Source of the DNA: a virus
DNA length: 27,843 nt
Virus record (IMG/VR): IMGVR_UViG_3300047325_000249
Location: 1 to 27,843 of that record
Direction: 5' to 3' (one strand)
Under the pieces are notes generated by a model. That model was not told the origin of the DNA, searched no databases, and was given only the letters and a program-made list of their open reading frames with translations. The translations under genes and the position numbers were made by a program. Of this stretch, positions 7,777-27,444 are shown in pieces. Every line of letters begins with the position of its first letter. Positions within the stretch are counted from its first letter, which is position 1.

Positions 7777-9339
7777 ATGCCCATTGTCCAGCAGGGAAGC
7801 ATCAACACCACTGCTCTCGTGGTACCTGATCTGTATGTTCAGATTGTACCACCACAAAACCTCGTGCTTAATGGCGTGCCAACGAACATCGTCGGCGTCG
7901 TGGGCACTGCTTCCTGGGGTCCGATCGGTCAGCCAGTGATTACGGCGACGATGTCGGATTACGCGCAGACCTTTGGCCCTATCATTGCACGCAAATATGA
8001 TATGGGCACTCAGGTGGCGACTGCAGTGCAGCAGGGCGCCCAGGATTTCCGTTGCGTCCGTGCGACGGACGGCACCGATACCGCTGCCCAGGCTGCCATC
8101 AATGGTACGACGTTCATATTCACCGCGTTGTATACTGGTTCTCTGGGTAACCAGATAGTCTTGACAATGGGGGCGGGGTCGCAAGCCAATACTTGGCGGC
8201 TGACGGTTGCTCTGCCGGGCCTTGCGCCCGAGGTTTATGACAATGTATCTGGCACCGGTGCCGCGTTCTGGACCGCACTCGCTGCAGCGGTCAATCAAGG
8301 TCAGGGTCTGTTGCGTGGTCCCTCACAGCTTGTAGTTGCCAGCGCCAATGGCACGACGGCGGCGCCTGCAGCCTTCTCGCTTAGCCTGGGCAGCGGGAAT
8401 CCAGGGACCGATGGCGCGAGTAACATTACCGCCTTGACGTTGGTCGGGTCGGATATCCTGCCCCGTCATGGAATGTACGCTTTGCGCGGACAAGGTTGCG
8501 GAATAGCGCTGCTCGCCGATGCAGATGACCCGACTCAATACACCACTCAGGCCGGCTTCGGTCTGGAAGAGGGCATCTACATGATGCTCACGGGGCCAGC
8601 TGGTGACACGATCAGCAACGCCGTTAATATGAAACAGCAGGTCGGGCTTGATTCCTATGCGGCCAAGCTCATGTTTGGAGACTGGCTGTGGTGGTCTGAC
8701 CAGGTCAATGGCGTCATCCGCCTGGTTTCTCCGCAGGGATTTGCAGCCGGTCGTCTCGCCAATCTTTCGCCTGAGCAGTCTAGCCTCAACAAACAGCTCT
8801 ATGGCGTGATCGGTAGTCAGAAATCAGGGTTGCCAGGATCTGGACAAACAACCAGCTACTCCTCGGCTGATCTCTCCGCTCTGCTCAGCGCCGGAATCGA
8901 CGTGATCGCCAATCCACAACCTGGGGGCAGCTACTGGGGGGTTCGCGGTGGGCATAACTCTTCGTCCAATACCGCCATCGATGGTGACAACTACACCCGC
9001 CTGACGAATTATATTGCAGCGACGTTGGCCGCTGGCATGGGTCAATATGTCGGCATGGTAATTAATGCCAACCTGTTTCAGCAGATTCGTTCGACTCAGC
9101 TCAGCTTTCTGCAGAACATGCTCGGTCAGGGCCTACTAGGCAGCACGGATGGAAGCCAGCCGTTCAGCGTCGTGTGTGATACATCCAACAATCCTCTCTC
9201 GCGAACAAGCCTCGGCTACGTCCAGTCTGATGCGCAGGTGCAATATCAGTCGATCAATGAGAAATTCATCGTCAACATTGAAGGTGGCCAAACCGTACAG
9301 GTGTCGGTCCAGACGCTGCCGAGCGGGCAAACGTCATAA
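7777..9339 (+). CDS. Contractile tail sheath protein
   Basis: 520-aa protein with a strong ribosome site (GAAGGAGG). The N-terminus (VPDLYVQIVPPQ; NIVGVVGTASWGPIGQPV) and the C-terminal part (NYIAATLAAGMGQYVGMVINANLFQQIRSTQLSFLQNMLGQGLLG; VQYQSINEKFIVNIEGGQTVQVSVQ) match the layout of phage tail sheath (Mu gpL/P2 FI type) proteins, whose terminal beta strands interlock neighbouring subunits. It polymerises around the tail tube and contracts to drive the tube through the cell envelope. The tail tube gene follows immediately, the expected partner. Confidence 0.93.
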   Translation: MPIVQQGSINTTALVVPDLYVQIVPPQNLVLNGVPTNIVGVVGTASWGPIGQPVITATMSDYAQTFGPIIARKYDMGTQVATAVQQGAQDFRCVRATDGTDTAAQAAINGTTFIFTALYTGSLGNQIVLTMGAGSQANTWRLTVALPGLAPEVYDNVSGTGAAFWTALAAAVNQGQGLLRGPSQLVVASANGTTAAPAAFSLSLGSGNPGTDGASNITALTLVGSDILPRHGMYALRGQGCGIALLADADDPTQYTTQAGFGLEEGIYMMLTGPAGDTISNAVNMKQQVGLDSYAAKLMFGDWLWWSDQVNGVIRLVSPQGFAAGRLANLSPEQSSLNKQLYGVIGSQKSGLPGSGQTTSYSSADLSALLSAGIDVIANPQPGGSYWGVRGGHNSSSNTAIDGDNYTRLTNYIAATLAAGMGQYVGMVINANLFQQIRSTQLSFLQNMLGQGLLGSTDGSQPFSVVCDTSNNPLSRTSLGYVQSDAQVQYQSINEKFIVNIEGGQTVQVSVQTLPSGQTS

Positions 9340-9351
9340 GGAGATCGGATC

Positions 9352-9780
9352 ATGGCTTTGAACAACTTCTCGGTTGGTCGCGATACCCAACTGGTGGTCA
9401 TTGGTGGCTCCGGCCGAATTGACCTTTCGCATGTCACTGGCTTCGAGGCGCGCCAGCTCACCCAGTCGGTGCGTGTTGATCGTCTCGACGGTAAGCAGAT
9501 GGGTGCTGAACTTCCGAAGGGGTGGGAGGGCAGCTTCGATATCGAGCGCGGCAATTCCGTTGCCGACGACTTCATATCTTCTGCGGAACAGGCCTACTAC
9601 AATGGTAGCCAGCCCAGTCTTGGCACAATGTACCAGTATATCACTGAGACCGACGGCTCCACATCTACCTATCAGTATGAAAGCGTCACGTTCCGGCTCT
9701 CGAGTGCCGGTCAATGGAAGGGCGACGCTAGCGTCAAGCAGAAGCTCGATTTCTTTGCTTCGCGACGCATGCGAATTTAA
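9352..9780 (+). CDS. Tail tube protein
   Basis: 142-aa protein with AAGGAG upstream. Length and pattern (FSVGRDTQLVVIGG; SHVTGFEARQLTQSVRVDRLDG; LPKGWEGSFDIERGNSVADDF; YQYESVTFRLSSAGQWKGDASVKQKLDFFASRRMRI) match the beta-barrel tube proteins of contractile tails, which stack as hexameric rings inside the sheath. The WEG.FDIERG and KQKLDFFASR segments are characteristic of the family in alphaproteobacterial phages. It sits between sheath and tail assembly chaperone, the normal order. Confidence 0.9.
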   Translation: MALNNFSVGRDTQLVVIGGSGRIDLSHVTGFEARQLTQSVRVDRLDGKQMGAELPKGWEGSFDIERGNSVADDFISSAEQAYYNGSQPSLGTMYQYITETDGSTSTYQYESVTFRLSSAGQWKGDASVKQKLDFFASRRMRI

Positions 9781-9792
9781 AGGGTATAGGTC

Positions 9793-10137
9793 ATGGGGCC
9801 AGCATCGAGCATACTGACTGCATCTGCATCTGAGCAGGTAGCGACGACGGCGGATGGAACGCGGCTGACGCTGCGACGCTTGAATGCACTAGACAAGCTG
9901 AGACTGTTCAAGGCAGCTGGGCCTATTCTAGCGCAAAACGAACCGTGGCTTGGCATGGCCCTTTTGGCATCGTCGGTCATTGCCATAGACGATGTGCCAG
10001 TACCGCTGCCGGCCACCGAGCATCAAATAGAAGCAATGGTAGCGCGACTTGGGGATGCGGGTATCGCGACCGTTGCCGCTGCGCTTCGGCCCGAATCTGT
10101 CGCGCAAAGCGGATTGGTGGCCAGCGCGGGAAACTGA
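9793..10137 (+). CDS. Tail assembly chaperone, short form (gpG-like)
   Basis: 114-aa zero-frame product ending at TGA 10135-10137. It starts with a small beta part (EQVATTADGTRLTLRRLNALDKLRLFKAAGP) and is otherwise helical (NEPWLGMALLASSVIAIDDV; EHQIEAMVARLGDAGIATVAAAL), the layout of lambda gpG/P2 gpE type chaperones that coat the tape measure during tail assembly. The last sense codons GGA AAC lie inside the slippery heptamer that yields the longer gpGT-like form. Location between tube and tape measure is canonical. Confidence 0.85.
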   Translation: MGPASSILTASASEQVATTADGTRLTLRRLNALDKLRLFKAAGPILAQNEPWLGMALLASSVIAIDDVPVPLPATEHQIEAMVARLGDAGIATVAAALRPESVAQSGLVASAGN

Positions 10138-10307
10138 GCAGGCACCCCGACCTGATCGATTGCCTTTTCTTGGTCAGGAATGGGGTGCCATTCGATGTTG
10201 CCTTCAGCCTCCCAGACGATGAGCGGCTGGCTTATGTGGTCGTTCTCGGCACTCTTGCCGGGCATGTCTTCGATTGGCAAAGCATGCGGTGGACGGACCA
10301 GCAATGA
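9793..10307 (+). CDS. Tail assembly chaperone, frameshifted long form (gpGT-like)
   Basis: Predicted -1 frameshift product: residues 1-114 are the short form, then decoding continues from base 10134 in the -1 frame for 57 codons (beginning LSRHPDLIDCLFLVRNG, ending at TGA 10305-10307), 171 aa in all. The extension has the typical T-domain look (GVPFDVAFSLPDDERLAYVVVLGTLAG and VFDWQSMRW). It has no start codon of its own that would explain its conserved beginning, and its stop overlaps the next gene (ATGA). In lambda and P2 relatives the T part recruits tube subunits to the tape measure-chaperone complex. Efficiency cannot be judged from sequence. Confidence 0.85.
10128..10189 (+). promoter_or_regulatory. 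Programmed -1 frameshift signal: slippery heptamer plus stem-loop
   Basis: G-GGA-AAC (10128-10134) is a canonical X-XXY-YYZ heptamer in the correct phase, directly before the zero-frame TGA. Six bases later a stem begins: GGCACCCC (10141-10148) pairs perfectly with GGGGTGCC (10182-10189), and CCTGATC (10151-10157) pairs with GGTCAGG (10172-10178, one T-G wobble). There is a small internal loop (GA opposite AAT) and a 14-base apical loop. Spacer length and stem strength fit stimulatory structures of known -1 sites. Confidence 0.9.
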
Positions 10308-10678
10308 CGCTCATCCGGGGTTTGCGACAGTTTGAAATACGGCTCGTCCGCTTTGGCTGGGAAAGGGCGATGGCCGACGCACTAGGGGTGGTCGCGCAGG
10401 AGCTTGAGTCCCAGGTTGTGGACGTGCTGTCGCAACCAGCAAGTATCGACCATAGCATGCCGTGGCTAGAGACTGGTGCATTGCGGGATTCAATTGGCCA
10501 CAACATTGATGGCACTATGGCCATCGTCGGTTCGACTAGTGACGTTGCCGTGGATCAAGAGCTCGGCACGCGGACAGATCCGCCACGCCCATTCTTTTCT
10601 GCCACAGCTGCAGCCGCTGCCAACCATCTAGTGCAGTCGATAGCAGCGTCACTGGCACGCCATATCGAAGATCATTGA
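10304..10678 (+). CDS. Tail completion protein, HK97 gp10-like
   Basis: 124-aa protein whose ATG overlaps the stop of the frameshifted chaperone (ATGA), implying translational coupling. The N-terminal half is helical (QFEIRLVRFGWERAMADALGVVAQELESQV). The second half carries ETGALRDSIGHNI, then VGSTSDVAVDQELGTRTDPPRPFFSATAAA, matching the E.GT...PPRPF pattern of HK97-gp10-like and minor tail/completion proteins. It would act at the neck or tail tip during joining. The gene usually sits further upstream in head-neck clusters, so its place after the chaperone is slightly unusual. I chose this start over an in-frame TTG at 10274 because of the overlap. Confidence 0.72.
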   Translation: MTLIRGLRQFEIRLVRFGWERAMADALGVVAQELESQVVDVLSQPASIDHSMPWLETGALRDSIGHNIDGTMAIVGSTSDVAVDQELGTRTDPPRPFFSATAAAAANHLVQSIAASLARHIEDH

Positions 10679-10679
10679 C

Positions 10680-11948
10680 ATGATCGACGCTTACACGATC
10701 GGAGTAACGCTCGCGCTGGAGGACGGCGTCTCCGAGGGCATCGAGGCGATCCGCCGAGATCTCGCGCAACTTGACGTCGCCGTCGCGCAGAGCGAGGCGA
10801 GGCTGCTCCAGCTTCGCGAATTGGCAACCGAGGCGGGATTGGCCGTGCAAGCTGTTCGGCCTGGTCAGACTGAGAGGCTTTTCGCGCCCCTGAGCCGTGA
10901 TCCTCAAACGCTTTCGCTGCCTGCTATCAAGAATGTAGCACAGATCGGTACGGCTCCTGTGAGCACGCCGTCGCTGTTCCCGGCGCTCGAACCGCAAACT
11001 GCCGTGCCGAAACCCGAAGCTGGGGTGCCAGGGGCCGCATTGAGCGCTGTGCTGCTCCGGCCAAGCGATACGCTAGCCGCTACGCCCTTGGCACTGCCGC
11101 AAGCGACTCGCGCTCGGACCGCGGCGCCGGTGGATCCGGCGCGCCCTGTTCAGCTGTCAATAGGACCAGAGGGGCCTGCGCCAAGCGTCAAGAGGGAGCC
11201 GCAAGACAAAGTCCCGCCAGTTGATTTCGCAGCCATCGCACGATCTTTGACACCGATCCGACCGGCATCGACATCAGTATCACCACTGACGGTGCAGGAG
11301 GCAGCATCGGCACGGAACGTCAGCGCACCCATTCCTACGCCATCGCAGCCTCCGCCGATCGATGTGTCGGTCGTGCAGCCACCATTGCCGCTAACGGCAA
11401 TCGCGGCGCCCGCGGCACCCCCTGCTTCGCAGCAGCCGACAAAGGAATCACCTGCATCGCCCACCCATCTGCCGGACAAATCAAAAGCGATAATCAATGT
11501 ACCCCGTATTCCGGCCCCATATCTCCCCTCGTCGAACACATCCTCAATGGAGCTGGAGCCTCCCCAGCAAGTCTCTCCGACTGCACGGCCCTTATCGACG
11601 GCTGTGTCGCCGCCGCCGCGGCGACCTGCTTTGCAGCCTGGATCCCCATCGTTCGGCGCACCAGCATCGTCGCAACAGTCGGCCGCGCCGCTACTCCCCA
11701 TGCAGCGGCAGGTTTCTTCTGCCGAAGTAAGGACGCCCCCATCGGCCCAGCCTGATTCGGCTGATAGTCCCACGGTTCCACCCCAGTCAGATAGACCGGT
11801 GCACGCGGAACTCCATCTGGACGGCGCACTACTGGGAAGATGGGTAACGAGATACATTGAGCGCCAGGTGACTCGGCCGCAATCGGGCGCCACAGGTTTT
11901 GATCCACGAATGACGCCTAGCTGGGTGGGTGCGCCGATCGGCAACTGA
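10680..11948 (+). CDS. Short Pro/Ala-rich candidate tape measure protein
   Basis: 422-aa protein directly after the completion gene and before the baseplate genes, the only candidate for a tape measure. The first ~55 residues (YTIGVTLALEDGVSEGIEAI; ARLLQLRELATEAG) are a beta strand plus helix of the kind seen at the start of tape measures. Residues ~60-370 are a low-complexity Pro/Ala/Ser/Thr stretch with no membrane segment. The C-terminus (HAELHLDGALLGRWVTRYIERQV; TGFDPRMTPSWVGAP) is a folded-looking cap. Tape measures are normally longer, helical and partly hydrophobic, so this is atypical. Alternatives are a degenerate tape measure or an unrelated tail protein. Confidence 0.5.
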   Translation: MIDAYTIGVTLALEDGVSEGIEAIRRDLAQLDVAVAQSEARLLQLRELATEAGLAVQAVRPGQTERLFAPLSRDPQTLSLPAIKNVAQIGTAPVSTPSLFPALEPQTAVPKPEAGVPGAALSAVLLRPSDTLAATPLALPQATRARTAAPVDPARPVQLSIGPEGPAPSVKREPQDKVPPVDFAAIARSLTPIRPASTSVSPLTVQEAASARNVSAPIPTPSQPPPIDVSVVQPPLPLTAIAAPAAPPASQQPTKESPASPTHLPDKSKAIINVPRIPAPYLPSSNTSSMELEPPQQVSPTARPLSTAVSPPPRRPALQPGSPSFGAPASSQQSAAPLLPMQRQVSSAEVRTPPSAQPDSADSPTVPPQSDRPVHAELHLDGALLGRWVTRYIERQVTRPQSGATGFDPRMTPSWVGAPIGN

Positions 11949-19242: not shown

Positions 19243-22200
19243 ATGCCGACCATCGACCAACTCGCCCCCGCAACAGCGTCTTATGACACTGACGAAATGA
19301 TGGCCAGTCAGAGTGGTGTCGTTGTCAAGGTGACGCGTGGGCAAGTCATAGCTGGTTTGCAGCCCACGCTGGCAATTCCTAGCGGCACGATTCTTGGGCG
19401 GGCATCAAGCGGCACGGGTGCACCTGAAACGCTCAGTGTCGGGACCAATTTGATCATCAACAGCGGGACACTCTCCGCTACCACCGGATACGTCGTAAGT
19501 TCCCTACCCGCAGGCACCGTTCCTGCCGTTGGCGACTTGGTTGCGATGGGTCAGGCCGGTGTTAACACGGCCGTTCCCTACGGCCAGTTTGTCAGTGGTC
19601 TGTCGGGTGTACCAGGCGTCGACGCGTCGCAAATGTTGGTGACAGCGACCGGCGCGTCCCGCAGTCAGAAACTTGCCGACTTCGCTGCGGGAACGTTGCC
19701 GACGGCGGGCGGCACAATGACCGGTGCATTGATCCTCGCGTCAAATCCAACGGCTGCGCTGCAGGCAACGCCGAAACAGTATGTCGATGCGCAGTCTAGT
19801 GCAGCGCTGCCGATCTCCGGTGGCACGATGACCGGTACGCTCACGCTGGCTGCGGACCCTTCGGCACCCTTACAAGCCGCGACGATGGACTATGTCGACG
19901 CCCGGGTGAGTAGGGCCCTGCCGATATCGGGCGGCACTATGACCGGGCTCCTGGTGCTCGCCAGCGATCCGGTAGCCTCGAGCGAGGCAGCGACGAAGCA
20001 TTATGTGGATGGCCAGGTGCTGACGTCACTGCCGATTGCTGGCGGCACGATGACCGGCAGTTTGACGCTGGCAGAAAATCCCACCGCTCCTTTGCAGGCT
20101 GCGCCCAAGCAATATGTCGATACGCAGGCGGCGGCGGCGCTGCCGATTGCAGGTGGTACAATGGCGGGGGCGCTGACATTGGCAGCCGACCCGACGACAC
20201 CATTAGAGGCAGCGACCAAAGAATATGTTGACGCCCAGGTGGGCACAGCCGTCCCGATCGCTGGTGGCACTATGACCGGCGTGCTGGTGCTCCCTGGCGA
20301 CCCAGTGGCATCGACCCAGGCCGCGACAAAGCACTATGTCGACAGTCAGGTTTTTACATCGCTGCCTCTAGCAGGTGGCACTATGACCGGTACTCTCACA
20401 CTGTCCGGTAATCCGACGACATCTTTGCAGGCCGCGCCAAAGCAGTACGTCGATAGCGCGGTGGAGTCCGTTTATTCTTCTCTGCCAACGACCTCGCTTC
20501 TTGGCGCGAATGGTGGCCAGTTCACAGCGGTGAGCCTACTATCCGGGGGAGGCCTCCAACTTACTGGCGGTAATCTGTCCTTGGCACCGGCAGGTGTCAA
20601 TTTCACGTCTGGTGATGTCACGCCAAGCGATACCGGCACTGCGACAACTTTGGGTGCTGCTATCGGTGCTCGTTTATCTCCTACGGGTAACGCATCTGCA
20701 TCAACAGTCGTCGCAACTGGTGGTACAACGGCCAGAACGCTGGCGACCAGATTTGCTGATATGTTCAACGCAAAGGATTACGGTGCACAGGGCGACGGCG
20801 TTACCGATGATACAGTGGCCTTGCAGCACTGGTTGACGGCGGTGGGATCGAGTGGTGGTACGGGATACATACCGTCGGGAACCTATGTTATCAGCAGTCC
20901 GCTCGCGCAGACGATTGCTGGCGTTTCTGTGAATATTCGGGGCGCCGGCGCTGGCAACACAAAGCTTCTTTTCAGTGGCTCGACAAATGGCCTGGTGATA
21001 ACTCTGACACGTGCCGTCGGCGTATGGGCGGGCGCGAGGATATCTGACCTCAGTATCGTGCGAAATCAGATGACCCCGGCGCAATCCAATGTCGGACTCT
21101 CCATTATTGTGGATTCGACGCAAGGAGTCAGCTATTTCGGAAACAGCGGTTTGTCGGACGTATCCATTATCGGCTCATCGCCAGGCATTAATGCATGGTC
21201 CACCGGAATTTTCCTGCAGGATACCACAAATTTCGAGCTGAGAAATGTCAACATACTGGGCCCCAACGCATCGGGAGGTGGAACAGACTGCGGTATTTCA
21301 ATCGTTGGCTCAAGTTCGTCGATGTTCAGCGTGCAAACAGACATCACAGATAGCAACATACAGGGATTTTCTACGGGCATTAGCGCCACAGGCTACATCC
21401 AGGGCATATTCGTTGAAAACAGCGCCATCATCGGTGATTGGTGGGGGATAAACTGGCAAGGAGCCTCGGCCGCCACGATCTATCCTGCGGCATCCAGTGT
21501 GGCGGCTGGAAGTTCAACGATCTACTTGTCGCCCGCTAACGCAGCGGCCCTACTGGCCTCAAATGGGTCTATCGTCAACGGCAATGGCATTACGCCGCAA
21601 TCGCGGATCGGAAGCACCAACGGCGTTCTGAATATCAACACCAGTACTGGGGCCATCACGATCAACCAACCGACAACAGGACAAATTACCGCTGGTGAAA
21701 GCATAAGCTTCCAGACATATTTCACTGGTGAAGCGCTCAACGTCGTTAACTGCACATTGAACGCCTCCTACAGAGACATTTTGGCTTCATGGCTCGGATT
21801 TGTGCAGATCGAAAATTGCAGCTTTCTCAGATTTGGGCTGACAGCCGCGACGTGGGCGGGGATTGACCTCGAAGAGTGCAATAATTCTTCGATCGTCGCA
21901 AATCAAATTATCGGGGCTTTTTCTGGCTCGGAAACCGGCATCATAGTTAATAGCCTAGGCTCGCAAGGGAATGCTCCAAACCTTGTAACCAGCAATGTTG
22001 TCAATGGCGTTTCCGGCTATGGCATTGCGTTGACCGGCACGACTCAGAACACTACTGCTGTGGCAAACACGGGTTACGCCTGCATTGCAGCTGTTAGCGC
22101 TAGCCAACAAAACATAAATGCTATTTTTGGGAATAAATCAAACGTAAATCCGCCCGATATTTCATTTAATACAACCACCGGAGATCTGAACTTCAACGGA

Positions 22201-22758
22201 CGGTCGTTCGTATTCGGAAACAACTCTTCTGTCAACGTTGAGTTCACAATAAACTCAGCCGCAGGGGGTGGTAACCTCAATTTTTCCGAAGGGGGAGCAG
22301 CGAATTGGATCGTCGGTGGCTCTCCGACGAACCTCGTATTTGGAAGATGCGTCATACCCGGCACGTTGACCGACGTCCCATTCATTATCGATACGGCTAC
22401 TGGGAGCCTGGCTCTTCTGCATAATCTGACCGTTGGCGGAACGCTCCAACGGCAGGCAATGATTTCGTCCACACCGTCATCGGGAAGCACGATTGCCATA
22501 GCAGCCGGGGTTTCGGACTATCGAATTCTCGGGAGTTCGCCACTAGGTGCGCTAACTGTCGAATTGCCTCCCTCTCCTGCTAACGGCCAAGTCGTGAGTG
22601 TCAGCTCTCAGGTCACCATCACTGCATTGACGGTGAGGGATGGCTCAGGTGGGACATCGGATGTACAGACGCCACCTGCGGCGCTGGCGGCAGGCGGGGG
22701 ATTCTCCGCCCAGTGGAACGCCTCGGCGTCTGTTTGGTGGTGCAGAGTCGGATCGTAA
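19243..22758 (+). CDS. Large tail fiber/spike with fiber repeats and pectate-lyase-like beta-helix
   Basis: 1171-aa protein. Residues ~1-150 are an N-terminal attachment region with three copies of a short D...SQ.G...V....L..G module, shared with the next gene. Residues 152-410 are seven 37-residue phage fiber repeats (GGTMTG.L.L..P......A.K.YVD). A linker leads to residues ~505-960, beginning FNAKDYGAQGDGVTDDTVAL, the entry signature of pectate-lyase-3 type right-handed beta-helices, with Asn/Ser/Ile-rich rungs. The C-terminus (ILGSSPLGALTVELPPSPANG; WNASASVWWCRVGS) is a small capping domain. Such beta-helix spikes bind or cleave surface polysaccharide; I do not identify catalytic acids with certainty. 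Confidence 0.88.
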   Translation: MPTIDQLAPATASYDTDEMMASQSGVVVKVTRGQVIAGLQPTLAIPSGTILGRASSGTGAPETLSVGTNLIINSGTLSATTGYVVSSLPAGTVPAVGDLVAMGQAGVNTAVPYGQFVSGLSGVPGVDASQMLVTATGASRSQKLADFAAGTLPTAGGTMTGALILASNPTAALQATPKQYVDAQSSAALPISGGTMTGTLTLAADPSAPLQAATMDYVDARVSRALPISGGTMTGLLVLASDPVASSEAATKHYVDGQVLTSLPIAGGTMTGSLTLAENPTAPLQAAPKQYVDTQAAAALPIAGGTMAGALTLAADPTTPLEAATKEYVDAQVGTAVPIAGGTMTGVLVLPGDPVASTQAATKHYVDSQVFTSLPLAGGTMTGTLTLSGNPTTSLQAAPKQYVDSAVESVYSSLPTTSLLGANGGQFTAVSLLSGGGLQLTGGNLSLAPAGVNFTSGDVTPSDTGTATTLGAAIGARLSPTGNASASTVVATGGTTARTLATRFADMFNAKDYGAQGDGVTDDTVALQHWLTAVGSSGGTGYIPSGTYVISSPLAQTIAGVSVNIRGAGAGNTKLLFSGSTNGLVITLTRAVGVWAGARISDLSIVRNQMTPAQSNVGLSIIVDSTQGVSYFGNSGLSDVSIIGSSPGINAWSTGIFLQDTTNFELRNVNILGPNASGGGTDCGISIVGSSSSMFSVQTDITDSNIQGFSTGISATGYIQGIFVENSAIIGDWWGINWQGASAATIYPAASSVAAGSSTIYLSPANAAALLASNGSIVNGNGITPQSRIGSTNGVLNINTSTGAITINQPTTGQITAGESISFQTYFTGEALNVVNCTLNASYRDILASWLGFVQIENCSFLRFGLTAATWAGIDLEECNNSSIVANQIIGAFSGSETGIIVNSLGSQGNAPNLVTSNVVNGVSGYGIALTGTTQNTTAVANTGYACIAAVSASQQNINAIFGNKSNVNPPDISFNTTTGDLNFNGRSFVFGNNSSVNVEFTINSAAGGGNLNFSEGGAANWIVGGSPTNLVFGRCVIPGTLTDVPFIIDTATGSLALLHNLTVGGTLQRQAMISSTPSSGSTIAIAAGVSDYRILGSSPLGALTVELPPSPANGQVVSVSSQVTITALTVRDGSGGTSDVQTPPAALAAGGGFSAQWNASASVWWCRVGS
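19696..20472 (+). repeat. Seven tandem 111-bp coding repeats with a 333-bp super-period
   Basis: Units start at 19696, 19807, 19918, 20029, 20140, 20251 and 20362, each coding 37 residues with the core GGTM(T/A)G. By their endings the units are three kinds: PKQYVD (1, 4, 7), ATMDYVD/ATKEYVD (2, 5) and ATKHYVD (3, 6), giving the order ABCABCA. Unit 3 matches 6 (DPVAS..AATKHYVD) better than it matches its neighbours. Confidence 0.85.
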
Positions 22759-22810
22759 CCGGGAAGACGACGTCAAGCGTCGCCGCCACCTCTTGCCGTG
22801 AAAGGCGATC

Positions 22811-25297
22811 ATGCCGACTATAAATCAACTACCCGTCACGACGTCGGTCACCGCGGCCGACGAAGTGCTGGTTAGCCAGGCTGGCGCGACATGTTCAGTC
22901 AGTGTTGGCAATTTGCTCGCGGGCACCCAGCCGGCGGTCGTTGCCCCGACAGGATCTTTACTCGGTCGGGTTAGTCCCGGGGCCGGCGGCCCGGAGCCGA
23001 TCGCAATAGGGGCCGGTCTGGCGCTTTCGGCAAGCGCGGTAGAGGCAAACGGAACGGATCACGCATCGTTTCCGCCTCAGACGACGCTTCAGCTGACCGA
23101 CCAGGCCGTTCTGAATAGCAGCGGCACGCCGATGCTGCTGCAATTGTCGCTGTTGCGTGGGTTGTTTTCGGCTGGCGCTAATGTAACGATCGACAACTCT
23201 GGCGTCATATCCGCGGCGAGTAACCCCGGCAGTGCGAGCGTCGCGTCCGGAAGCGCCGACAGTATCGCTGCACTGAGCCAAGTCAGCGCGCTGGCAGCGA
23301 CCGATCTGATAGCGGTGAGTCAGGATGGTGTGGATCATGCCATCACCTATGCAAACCTTATCGGGGGTGAAACAATCGACGAGTTTGCGGCGGCCGGGCC
23401 AGCAGCTGATACCGACATCTTCCCGGTCGGACAGGGCACGAGCACGATGGTCGCGCAAACCCTCGCCGCATTGTGGACCTGGATACAGGGCCATTTGCCT
23501 GGATACAGGCAGCCGGTCGTGGAGATCACCGTCAATACCACATTGGATGCTTCAGTGCATAACGGTCGGATCCTGATCGTATCGCAGGCCGGCTTGACCC
23601 TGACCCACTCAAGCGACGAGGGAAGTGGGTTCAATTGCACCGTGGTCAATGCATCGTCAGGCAGCGTGACCTTTGACAGTGGTGTGGTGACGACCTCAGG
23701 CATCAACACACTTGCGTCCGGACAGATGGCCGAGGTGACGTGTGCTACCTACTCCGGTGGTACATTGACCTACGCGTGGATGTCCGGTCCGCTGGCGTCG
23801 CCGGTGCCCGGTCAGGTGACAAGTCTCACGACCGGCACGATCACTTATTCCACTGTCGCTATAACGTGGTCTGCTCCACCGTCCGGCGGTGCGCCGACCA
23901 GCTACACGGTGCAGTATCGCCAGACCGGTACAAATCCTTGGACGTCAATGGTCGCGACGACGACCAGCGCCACCATCTTCGGCCTCGCCGCTGGCACCGA
24001 ATATGATATCGCAGTGATTGGATCGAACGCGGGTGGAAACGGTCCGGCCAGCGCTATTGTCAATGCAACCACCGCCGCCGCACCGACCATTGTACCCGGC
24101 CAGGTCACCGGACTCGTGACGTCCAATTCTACTGCGACAACCATGAACCTGTCATGGTCCCCACCGACATCAGGCGGCCCCGCTGGGAGCTACACGGTTC
24201 TGTACCGTGTCACCGGTCAGTCCGGGTGGATTACGTCCGCTACGAATGTCTCTGGTACCTCGGAAACCGTGACGGGCCTTACGGCCTCCACGGGATATGA
24301 TTTTTCGGTTTATGCGGTCAACAGCGCCGGCAATGGTGCACAGAGCGCTACAGCCACAGGGTCCACAACGATAATGACGCCGGGCACGCCGGTCGCGCCG
24401 ACTGTTGGCACGGTAACACAGACGACCGTAGCGATTTCGTGGTCGGCGCCGACATCGGGGGGCGCCGTCAACACCTACACACTGCAGTGGCGCGTGACCG
24501 GTGGCAGCGGATGGACGCAGCAGACGGGAATCACTGGCACTAGCGCTACGATCAGCGGATTGGCTGCCAACACCCAATACGATTTGCAAGTGGCGGCCGT
24601 AAACGCTGGCGGGACCTCTGCCTTTACCGCCACCGTAAACGCAACAACTCCGATGGTGCCGCCTGGAACGCCGACCGCTCTGGCCGCCGGTCTTTCAACC
24701 AGCTCGACGCAGGCTTTGTCCTGGTCAGCACCGTCCTCGGGCGGAGCGGTTGCGACCTACAGTGTGCGTTACAGCGTCAGTGGCCTCAATTCGTGGACGA
24801 CAACCACCGGGATCGTAACTACTGGCACGACGGTTACCGGCCTCCAGCGCAACACGAGTTACGACTTCGAAGTATTGGCGGTCAATGCGGGCGGCAGCAG
24901 TGCGTGGACGGCCACCACGACAGTCAGCACGACGAACTATCTGCTCACGGAAGGCTTCCTGCCCGGAGCGAATGTGTCTTGGGCGCACGGATCGGCTGGC
25001 AATGGCGTCAATGTCAATGCCAACGTCGAAGCCGCCGGCGGATCGCACGCGACACCGAGTTCGGTGCAGTTTGCCTATGGCACAAGCAACACTGTGCCTC
25101 CGACCAGCGGATGGGAAACCGGCCTATCCGTCTACAACCCGGGTCTCGGGCAGACTGGTTATCCTGGTTACTACTATGGCGGATACATCAGCGCGCCGGC
25201 AACCGCTGGCACATGGCATCTGTGGTTCCAGGCGCTTGACGCCAGCGGGAACGTGCAGACGCAGTATGTGTCGATCTACACCATCACGGCGACATAA
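22811..25297 (+). CDS. Tail fiber protein with four fibronectin type III domains
   Basis: 828-aa protein. The N-terminus (MPTINQLPVTTSVTAADEVL) matches the start of the preceding fiber, including the SQ.G module, which recurs near residues ~163-185 and ~198-220. A beta domain follows (residues ~230-330). Four fibronectin III domains then begin near residues 333, 428, 522 and 616, each with P-G-(Q/T)-(V/P), a WSAP/WSPP strand, SY/TYT/V strand, and a T.Y.(I/F/L).V.A/G.N..G hallmark. The C-terminal domain (~710-828; YLLTEGFLPGANVSWAHG; GYPGYYYGGYISAPA) is likely the receptor-binding tip. FN3 domains in fibers act as spacers or polysaccharide-binding elements. No enzyme motif is seen. Confidence 0.85.
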   Translation: MPTINQLPVTTSVTAADEVLVSQAGATCSVSVGNLLAGTQPAVVAPTGSLLGRVSPGAGGPEPIAIGAGLALSASAVEANGTDHASFPPQTTLQLTDQAVLNSSGTPMLLQLSLLRGLFSAGANVTIDNSGVISAASNPGSASVASGSADSIAALSQVSALAATDLIAVSQDGVDHAITYANLIGGETIDEFAAAGPAADTDIFPVGQGTSTMVAQTLAALWTWIQGHLPGYRQPVVEITVNTTLDASVHNGRILIVSQAGLTLTHSSDEGSGFNCTVVNASSGSVTFDSGVVTTSGINTLASGQMAEVTCATYSGGTLTYAWMSGPLASPVPGQVTSLTTGTITYSTVAITWSAPPSGGAPTSYTVQYRQTGTNPWTSMVATTTSATIFGLAAGTEYDIAVIGSNAGGNGPASAIVNATTAAAPTIVPGQVTGLVTSNSTATTMNLSWSPPTSGGPAGSYTVLYRVTGQSGWITSATNVSGTSETVTGLTASTGYDFSVYAVNSAGNGAQSATATGSTTIMTPGTPVAPTVGTVTQTTVAISWSAPTSGGAVNTYTLQWRVTGGSGWTQQTGITGTSATISGLAANTQYDLQVAAVNAGGTSAFTATVNATTPMVPPGTPTALAAGLSTSSTQALSWSAPSSGGAVATYSVRYSVSGLNSWTTTTGIVTTGTTVTGLQRNTSYDFEVLAVNAGGSSAWTATTTVSTTNYLLTEGFLPGANVSWAHGSAGNGVNVNANVEAAGGSHATPSSVQFAYGTSNTVPPTSGWETGLSVYNPGLGQTGYPGYYYGGYISAPATAGTWHLWFQALDASGNVQTQYVSIYTITAT

Positions 25298-25308
25298 GGG
25301 ATAGATTG

Positions 25309-27444
25309 ATGCCGAGCATCGCGCAGGCCGGCGCGCACCACACGATGATGGTCGCGCCCGGTGTCGCTGCTCTCTGGCGAGCGAATGCCAATGCGTCGAG
25401 TGGTGTTTCGTATACAGGTCCTTATCCGACAGCCATTGCTGGTCTCAGTGGATGGTGGGATGCCAGCACCTACGCCAGTCTGGTGGATGCCAATGGCAAC
25501 CCGTTGCCGGGATGGAACAACGCTGCGGCCGGCGTTGCGGACAAGTCTGGTGTCGGCACGACGCTTGCCGTTTATCACTACGCGGGCAGCGGCACTGCAC
25601 CACAGGCGACACCGCGTCTCAACGGCATCTTGGGCGGGATCGGCCTGAACACTATCGTGCCGCCCAGCGTGCCGCCTTCTGGTACGGGCTGGCTATTGCC
25701 GTTCTTGGACGTCGATACCGGCTTCTCTTTGCCGTCGATGTCCATCGGTTCAGGTTCCGGCTGGACAGTCTACTTTGTCTGGTCACGGCCGAATTACATG
25801 CAGGGCGGAAGCGTGCTGCCGCCTGAGATCGCCCTGCTGACATCCGGCGCGACGGTAATCCTGGCAGCCGACTCGACCGCCGGTGCCAATTCACGGCTGA
25901 TCCTGTTTCCGGGGGCATCGCAGACCATCATAACCAGCGCACTCGAGCGCCGGCATACGCATTCGATCATCATCTGTAACACTCCCGGAACAGGGATCGC
26001 CGTGTGGCTGGATGGGACGCAGGTGACGTCATCGGCCTCAAATCCGCTGTCATCCGCTGTTACGGCGCCGTTGCTCTTCCTGCACAGTGGGACCGCCTAC
26101 GGTGCCGCGCAGTGCTGGTTTCACGAGGCGGCGATTTGGCCGCGCGCGCTGGCGGGTAGCGATATCACAACGCTCCTGTCCTGCGCGGCACGCTGGACGC
26201 GCGGCATCCGCAGGGGCGTTCAGTTGCTGGTCATGGGCCAGAGTAATGCCGGGTATTCGCTGGGTGACGGCGCATGGCATCTGCTCGCGCAGGGCATCGC
26301 CTGGCATCTGGGGGCGCTGGCCTATAACGTGATCGGCACCTGGGGCAGCAGTGGATCGGCCACCTGTGTCAGCGGACACGGCATCAGCAACATGCCTTTC
26401 AGCGCCAGCGATGCGACGGCCGTCTATCCCGGTAGCTTCCTGGAGGACCCGGGCGACGGCAGCGATCCGGCAGGCTGGGCGCTCGGCCTGGACAGTACCG
26501 GCGTACAAGTGGTTCTGTCCTCGACCGCCGCTGACGATCTGTCGGACCTTGCGCTGATCATCTGGCCCTGGACCGAGACGGACAGCATCCGCGCCTACAG
26601 CGACAAAACCGATTTCGAACACGCGCAGATTAACCTTCTGGCTAAGGTGCGGGCGATGGTTTCGCGCAGCGCTGCGTCGCTGCCTTTGATGCTATGGAAC
26701 GCGATACCGTTTGGCTCAGGCGGCCCGGGCGGAATGCAAATGGTGCGAGAGGCGGCGGCAGACCTCGCCAACATGCCCGGCGCAAACGCCTTCATCGGCT
26801 TGCCTCAGACATCGGACAGCAATCCGCGTGGTGGAACGTGGAACGCAACGAACGGTGTGTTCACGCAGGGAACGGGTGACTATCTGCACCGCGACGCGAC
26901 GGACAATATCCGCTTCGGTCGGCTGGCGGCGCCAGTGGCGGCGCGTGCCGTCTTGGCAGCAACCGGCGGCGATACGGAAACCTCGATCCCATCCGGTATC
27001 CCCATGATCGGAGGGCCCCATATCTCGCATGTATATCAGGAAATCGCGAATAGCACGACGATCATTGTGACGATCACGCACGACGCCGGCAACGACCTGA
27101 TCGTGCCGTTTCAGGCGGTAACGGGCGTAGGTTTTTCGGTAATGGACGGCGGCAGTGTGGCTTCGCCGGGCCCCATCATCGCCGCTATCGCGTGTGCACG
27201 TATTGATGCCACGCATCTGCAAATCACCCTTGCATCAGCGCCGACGAACGCGCAGGCAGGCCTTCTATTTTTCTACAGCTATGGCCCCAACAACATCTTT
27301 CGGGGCGATGCTGTCTATGACAACTACTCGACGCTGGCGCCACTGTTGGACTGGAACATCGCGGGCGATCTTGGCAGTGCATGGGCGTTGAACTATCCGT
27401 TGGCGGCTACCACGACGCCGATTGCAGTTTCTGCTACGCCGTAG
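25309..27444 (+). CDS. Tail spike with LamG-like lectin and SGNH esterase domains
   Basis: 711-aa protein starting at ATG 25309 (AGGGA upstream); a TTG one codon earlier is less likely. Residues ~45-290 look like a concanavalin-A/LamG lectin fold (LSGWWDASTYASLVDANG; GWTVYFVWSRPN; HSIIICNTPGTGIAVWLDG; CWFHEAAIWPRAL). From ~305 a sialate O-acetylesterase/SGNH hydrolase-like domain begins: VMGQSNAGYSL contains the nucleophile Ser312 in the GQSN block, and GDYLHRD holds the DxxH catalytic pair Asp524-His527. The C-terminal ~140 residues (HISHVYQEIANSTTIIVTI and after) are a beta domain. It probably removes acetyl groups from surface polysaccharide during adsorption; the substrate is unknown. Confidence 0.85.
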   Translation: MPSIAQAGAHHTMMVAPGVAALWRANANASSGVSYTGPYPTAIAGLSGWWDASTYASLVDANGNPLPGWNNAAAGVADKSGVGTTLAVYHYAGSGTAPQATPRLNGILGGIGLNTIVPPSVPPSGTGWLLPFLDVDTGFSLPSMSIGSGSGWTVYFVWSRPNYMQGGSVLPPEIALLTSGATVILAADSTAGANSRLILFPGASQTIITSALERRHTHSIIICNTPGTGIAVWLDGTQVTSSASNPLSSAVTAPLLFLHSGTAYGAAQCWFHEAAIWPRALAGSDITTLLSCAARWTRGIRRGVQLLVMGQSNAGYSLGDGAWHLLAQGIAWHLGALAYNVIGTWGSSGSATCVSGHGISNMPFSASDATAVYPGSFLEDPGDGSDPAGWALGLDSTGVQVVLSSTAADDLSDLALIIWPWTETDSIRAYSDKTDFEHAQINLLAKVRAMVSRSAASLPLMLWNAIPFGSGGPGGMQMVREAAADLANMPGANAFIGLPQTSDSNPRGGTWNATNGVFTQGTGDYLHRDATDNIRFGRLAAPVAARAVLAATGGDTETSIPSGIPMIGGPHISHVYQEIANSTTIIVTITHDAGNDLIVPFQAVTGVGFSVMDGGSVASPGPIIAAIACARIDATHLQITLASAPTNAQAGLLFFYSYGPNNIFRGDAVYDNYSTLAPLLDWNIAGDLGSAWALNYPLAATTTPIAVSATP

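Follow-up and report, generated by a model that had tools for sequence, protein, structure and literature searches.

The window analysed here, a stretch of viral DNA of 27,843 nucleotides, carries the late genes of a phage with a contractile tail, whose hosts are probably acetic-acid-type bacteria. On the forward strand, a gene for a tail sheath protein (7777–9339; phrog_23, E = 2.6e-48) is followed by a gene for a protein of 142 aa (9352–9780) that matches a family with no function assigned (phrog_12993, E = 1.3e-43) and that we regard as the probable tail tube, or major tail, protein because it lies directly after the sheath and before a two-frame gene at 9793–10307. Downstream are a gene for a tail completion or neck-type protein (10304–10678; phrog_5, E = 2.7e-8) and a gene for a protein of 422 aa with a proline-rich middle (10680–11948). 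The order is sheath, tube, putative frameshift gene, neck and, by position, tape measure. The 422-aa protein had no family match in PHROG/Pfam-type profile searches; its positional counterpart in Komagataeibacter phage phiKX2 resembles families of tape measure proteins (phrog_28, E = 1.3e-6). If 10680–11948 encodes the tape measure protein, the tails should be short. Proteins related to its N-terminus and encoded near the same position have about 330–470 aa, and that of phiKX2 has 742 aa.

The zero frame of the two-frame gene (9793–10137, forward strand) encodes 114 aa, resembles phrog_20383 (no function assigned; E = 2.5e-18) and ends in the codons GCG GGA AAC TGA. These contain the heptamer GGGAAAC at 10128–10134 in the X XXY YYZ phase of a slippery site (G GGA AAC), directly adjoined by the zero-frame TGA at 10135–10137, as a preliminary description of this DNA had reported. 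Read in the -1 frame from CTG at 10134, the sequence continues for 57 aa to a TGA at 10305–10307 (10134–10307 with the stop), which overlaps the ATG of the neck-type gene at 10304–10306 as ATGA, and translation agrees with the fusion of 114 + 57 = 171 aa that had been proposed. By itself, the heptamer occurs about as often in the window as expected (3 copies vs 2.7); what exceeds chance is its phase and position, its conservation at 177 of 178 loci and the synonymous-codon constraint on the stem that follows it.

That stem begins after a spacer of 6 nt (10135–10140). The eight perfect pairs expected from the preliminary description were found between 10141–10148 and 10182–10189, with a ninth, G.U pair on top of them (10149/10181), so that the 5′ arm of the lower stem spans 10141–10149 (GGCACCCCG) and the 3′ arm 10181–10189 (TGGGGTGCC; CGGGGTGCC in most relatives). 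Above it, an upper stem-loop (10151–10178) pairs 10151–10159 with 10170–10178, with seven pairs up to position 10157 and two weak ones. RNA folding, which had been suggested as a check, gave -35.5 kcal/mol for the 81 nt from 10120 (z -3.2), an energy equally low in 1 of 200 shuffles.

To collect related loci, we used the tube protein and the fusion as queries against IMG/VR and GTDB genomes. The scans yielded 159 viral loci and 21 from genomes, which belong to Acetobacteraceae, Rhodospirillales and proteobacterial bins. Both halves of the gene could be placed in 178 loci, a set that includes the window and phiKX2 and in which some loci overlap each other. The second half lies in the -1 frame relative to the first in 177 of them, and a heptamer occupies the homologous position as GGGAAAC in 171 and as AAAAAAC in 6. 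In the remaining locus, L121, which keeps the hairpin, an A is missing from the heptamer near position 1215 (GGGAAC). In a further locus, L051, the heptamer is intact and a TAG interrupts the zero frame upstream of it; both are probably assembly errors or decaying copies. Each of 122 distinct sequences leaves room for a shift between its last -1 stop and its zero-frame stop, and the overlap common to all these stretches is 9 nt long, with the heptamer at its end. The zero-frame stop, TGA or TAA, follows the heptamer directly in 75 of these 122 sequences and lies 18 nt later in 47, with about ten switches between the two states on a quick tree. The preliminary description had named homologues without heptamer and stem as evidence against a frameshift; among the 178 loci, none lacks both while keeping the two frames.

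Conservation of the hairpin was assessed in a gap-free alignment of the 122 distinct sequences (alignment A1), in which the 6-nt spacer and the distances between the arms are constant throughout (122/122). The lower stem, GGCACCCCG with CGGGGTGCC, is paired in 99.3% of cells (119 distinct rows). The extension of the stem by seven further pairs, part of the original proposal, is present in the window and is only partly conserved, since the upper stem is paired in 76.9% of cells and phiKX2 carries a replacement of its own. An RNAalifold consensus of a 66-nt alignment, which folds nested structures only, is a simple stem of 9 bp. Both-sided changes occur at three lower-stem pairs (CG to GC, CG to UA and GC to AU), the first of them together with a linked Pro to Ala substitution, and independent double changes amount to few events on the quick tree. 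Because the number of independent events is small, covariation alone is modest evidence.

At the level of sequence comparison, codon choice provides the decisive evidence for selection on the hairpin as RNA. Within the arms, His is encoded by CAC in 122 of 122 sequences (background 0.41), Gly by GGG in 117 of 121 (background 0.12) and Val by GTG in 122 of 122 (background 0.36), the Gly and Val codons marking the 3′ arm. Shuffles that preserve the protein and draw on the codon usage of the family have a mean minimum free energy of -11.4 kcal/mol vs -27.3 kcal/mol for the native sequences (mean z -4.5), and only 0.2% of them reach the native energy. The two uppermost pairs of the lower stem are wobble pairs in 17 and 10 sequences; no wobble appears at the pair 10145–10185 (0/122), although CAT would be synonymous there, and elsewhere in the -1 frame CAT is the commoner His codon. 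The lower pairs of this stem never vary in sequence. The wobble pattern would fit a need for a strong base beside the ribosome.

These data bear on whether the hairpin might have another origin or role, as a transcription terminator, a site of RNA processing or of protein binding, or a by-product of the amino acid sequence, with the heptamer slipping without its help or during transcription. Near-invariance of the lower stem beyond what pairing demands could mean recognition of its sequence, and Burkholderia phage KL1 carries the same combination of heptamer and stop with no notable hairpin (z -0.27). However, conservation of the amino acids as sole cause is excluded by the protein-preserving shuffles and the fixation of codons, and we have rejected the by-product reading on those grounds. 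Scans for terminators and promoters found no such site, the hairpin had no match in Rfam, and the fixed 6-nt distance between heptamer and stem in all sequences fits a stimulator that acts on the ribosome. GGGAAAC also lacks the long homopolymer usual for polymerase slippage, which AAAAAAC, in its 6 loci, would allow to some extent. On balance, we judge these alternatives for the hairpin improbable. We give a slightly lower, and still small, chance to the idea that the lower stem is kept as sequence, possibly because a phage or host factor recognises it and so sets the ratio of short to long product, or because it has a further role as RNA in the late operon. Upstream of the heptamer, base frequencies gave no sign of a Shine-Dalgarno-like stimulator.

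Beyond the hairpin, -1 codons 19–40 show a diversity of 0.25, 0.17 and 0.63 at codon positions 1, 2 and 3, a pattern from which the -1 frame is seen to be under coding selection. Its conserved beginning, LSRHPDLIDCL.LVRNGVPFDVAF, is maintained from the first residue onward, which argues against initiation inside the frame. Such initiation is what would be needed if the second frame encoded a separate small protein, made by re-initiation or from an internal start after the stop, with no fusion formed. A GTG at -1 codon 17 (10185–10187) is a candidate start that occurs in 122 of 122 distinct sequences, in many of them preceded by purines, and in the phiKX2 record each half is annotated as a gene of its own. 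Yet the residues upstream of this GTG (LSRHPDLIDCL.LVRNG) rank with the best conserved residues in this family and so are translated, no family-wide start codon lies between the heptamer and codon 17, and the GTG is explained as invariant by its pairing with the invariant CAC. Synthesis of a separate protein also leaves the conservation of an in-phase heptamer unexplained, and we hold it to be very unlikely. A start at this GTG in the window would give a product of 40 aa.

That the frame break is a sequencing error or the mark of a decayed gene has a negligible probability: a single-base change would join the frames, and one aberrant locus (L121) lacks an A while another (L051) has an upstream zero-frame stop, but independent loci refute this reading: 177 of 178, drawn from many metagenomes, show the frames parting at one and the same base, as do 21 genome contigs and the isolates phiKX1 and phiKX2.

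We therefore consider it very likely, as judged from sequence, that the gene at 9793–10307 yields two proteins from one start through a -1 programmed frameshift; it is a likely tail assembly chaperone gene of the lambda G/GT type. The frameshift in a tail chaperone gene put forward in the preliminary description is thus strongly backed by comparative evidence from the reading frames (177/178 loci), the pairing of the lower stem, the fixation of codons and the shuffles. Translation would mostly end at the TGA at 10135, yielding the chaperone of 114 aa. A minority of ribosomes, their tRNA-Gly paired with GGA and their tRNA-Asn with AAC, would slip back by one base onto GGG AAA on meeting the stable hairpin 6 nt downstream, which presumably stimulates the event, and would read on in the -1 frame to produce the 171-aa form with its T-like domain of 57 aa. 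Going by lambda G/GT, the 114-aa product would be expected to cover the tape measure protein and its extended version to bring in tail tube subunits. In this model, we infer the occurrence and rate of slippage, its stimulation by the hairpin and the roles of the two chaperone forms. A point against the model is that AAC is a weaker A-site slippage codon than AAG in E. coli, as judged from A_AAA_AAG vs A_AAA_AAC (PMC5009743); these phages may plausibly lean on the hairpin for that reason.

No curated family names the protein as a chaperone. Pfam has no family for either half, whether members were searched singly or over the whole set, and sequence searches of the PDB returned nothing credible. 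AF2 models of the 114-aa part (pLDDT 85) and of the 57-aa extension (pLDDT 91, helical) were obtained, and the top PDB fold match of the former is the HK97 tail assembly chaperone 2ob9, a weak match with a probability of 0.85, E = 0.14, a TM score of 0.46 and 14% identity. Among viral structure predictions, named tail assembly chaperones, including one from Bacillus phage Gemini, match the 114-aa model at E = 4e-3. Together with the gene order and the tape measure match in phiKX2, the weak fold match of the predicted structure makes a chaperone likely. The occurrence of this signal in the gene of a known chaperone (L203, below) also supports the G/GT-type reading.

Frameshifted tail chaperones are a classic strategy of phages (Xu, Hendrix and Duda 2004, reviewed in PMC5009743). 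Like lambda G/GT, the gene described here would yield two nested products, a short chaperone and a -1-extended form; it has an X XXY YYZ heptamer towards the close of its first frame and probably sits after the gene for the major tail protein and before the tape measure region. It differs in belonging to a contractile-tailed phage, in the near-invariant hairpin 6 nt downstream of the heptamer, and in the neck-type gene that stands between the chaperone and the tape-measure position. Sequence homology to lambda G/T was not detected in the libraries searched. In lambda the heptamer is GGGAAAG, as against GGGAAAC here.

The heptamer GGGAAAC itself has been named in phages Colossus (PMC3556154), HCTV-1 (PMC5009743) and KL1 (PMC3483164). 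Inspection of the sequence of KL1 gp18/gp19 (PMC3483164) shows GGGAAAC directly before the zero-frame TGA, and there too a gene intervenes before the tape measure, as is also the case between the frameshift genes and the tape measure of HK97 (PMC3483164), the phage of the top, weak fold match noted above. In contrast to the phage studied here, KL1 is a siphophage, and the 81 nt that we folded from it gave no notable hairpin, as cited above; its authors report a possible mfold stem-loop (PMC3483164). KL1 was absent from the matches of our searches for protein relatives. Because KL1 has a TGA directly after GGGAAAC as well, and since the stop lies 18 nt later in 47 of the 122 relatives, the arrangement in the window is not unusually compact, as had been claimed for it.

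True relatives are found in Komagataeibacter phages phiKX1 and phiKX2 (PMC8566455), with 34% identity over 85% of the fusion. They share the -1 relation of the frames, the 6-nt spacer and the lower stem of GGCACCCCG with CGGGGTGCC, and have A AAA AAC TGA at the slippery site. Electron microscopy of induced strains assigned a myovirus morphology to phiKX1/phiKX2, and the paper makes no mention of frameshifting (PMC8566455). In the phiKX2 record (LC644976; L160:7977-8515), the annotation lists PhiKX2_400 and PhiKX2_410 as two independent hypothetical proteins; together they make up the -1 frameshift gene.

The specificity of the signal was examined with a pattern scan of IMG/VR for GGGAAACTNRNNNGGCAC and GNGTGCC at the right distance, which found at least 119 stretches. 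Among the 119 whole-signal matches listed, 116 encode both halves of the frameshift gene found at 9793–10307, one (L260) encodes the extension at the end of its contig, and one (L271) looks like a chance match. The remaining one among those listed, L203, lies in the gene of another tail assembly chaperone, one that is already recognised (phrog_344, E = 7.9e-27), in which GGGAAAC-TAG, a 6-nt spacer and a GGCACCC/GGGTGCC stem follow one another (L203:303-400) and the extension matches tail assembly proteins. Judged from sequence, the likeness of this signal could reflect either convergence or very old common descent. The L203 extension starts with LARHP, and that of the window with LSRHP.

The frameshift strategy as such is well known; the novelty lies in the family and in the clear evidence that its putative RNA stimulator is conserved. 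This family of contractile-tailed phages and prophages of Acetobacteraceae and Rhodospirillales very probably makes a frameshifted tail chaperone, and its 122 distinct sequences are a natural collection of unusual clarity, where selection on codons brings out the probable RNA stimulator of a frameshift in a phage tail gene. The two positions of the stop (+0 and +18) and the two heptamers (G GGA AAC and A AAA AAC) are natural variants with which the shares of slippery site, stop and hairpin could be tested, in bacteria whose ribosomes are little studied.

Further downstream, ORF translations of 19243–25297 read as two consecutive large tail-fibre-like genes, the first with repeated GGTMTG.L.L motifs and the second with fibronectin-type-III-like repeats, and with similar N-termini (MPTIDQL and MPTINQL). 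Beside them, the translation of 25306–27444 gives a protein of 712 aa with a stretch, VMGQSNAGYSLGDG, that resembles SGNH/sialate-esterase-type enzymes, and this protein is possibly a tail-associated esterase.
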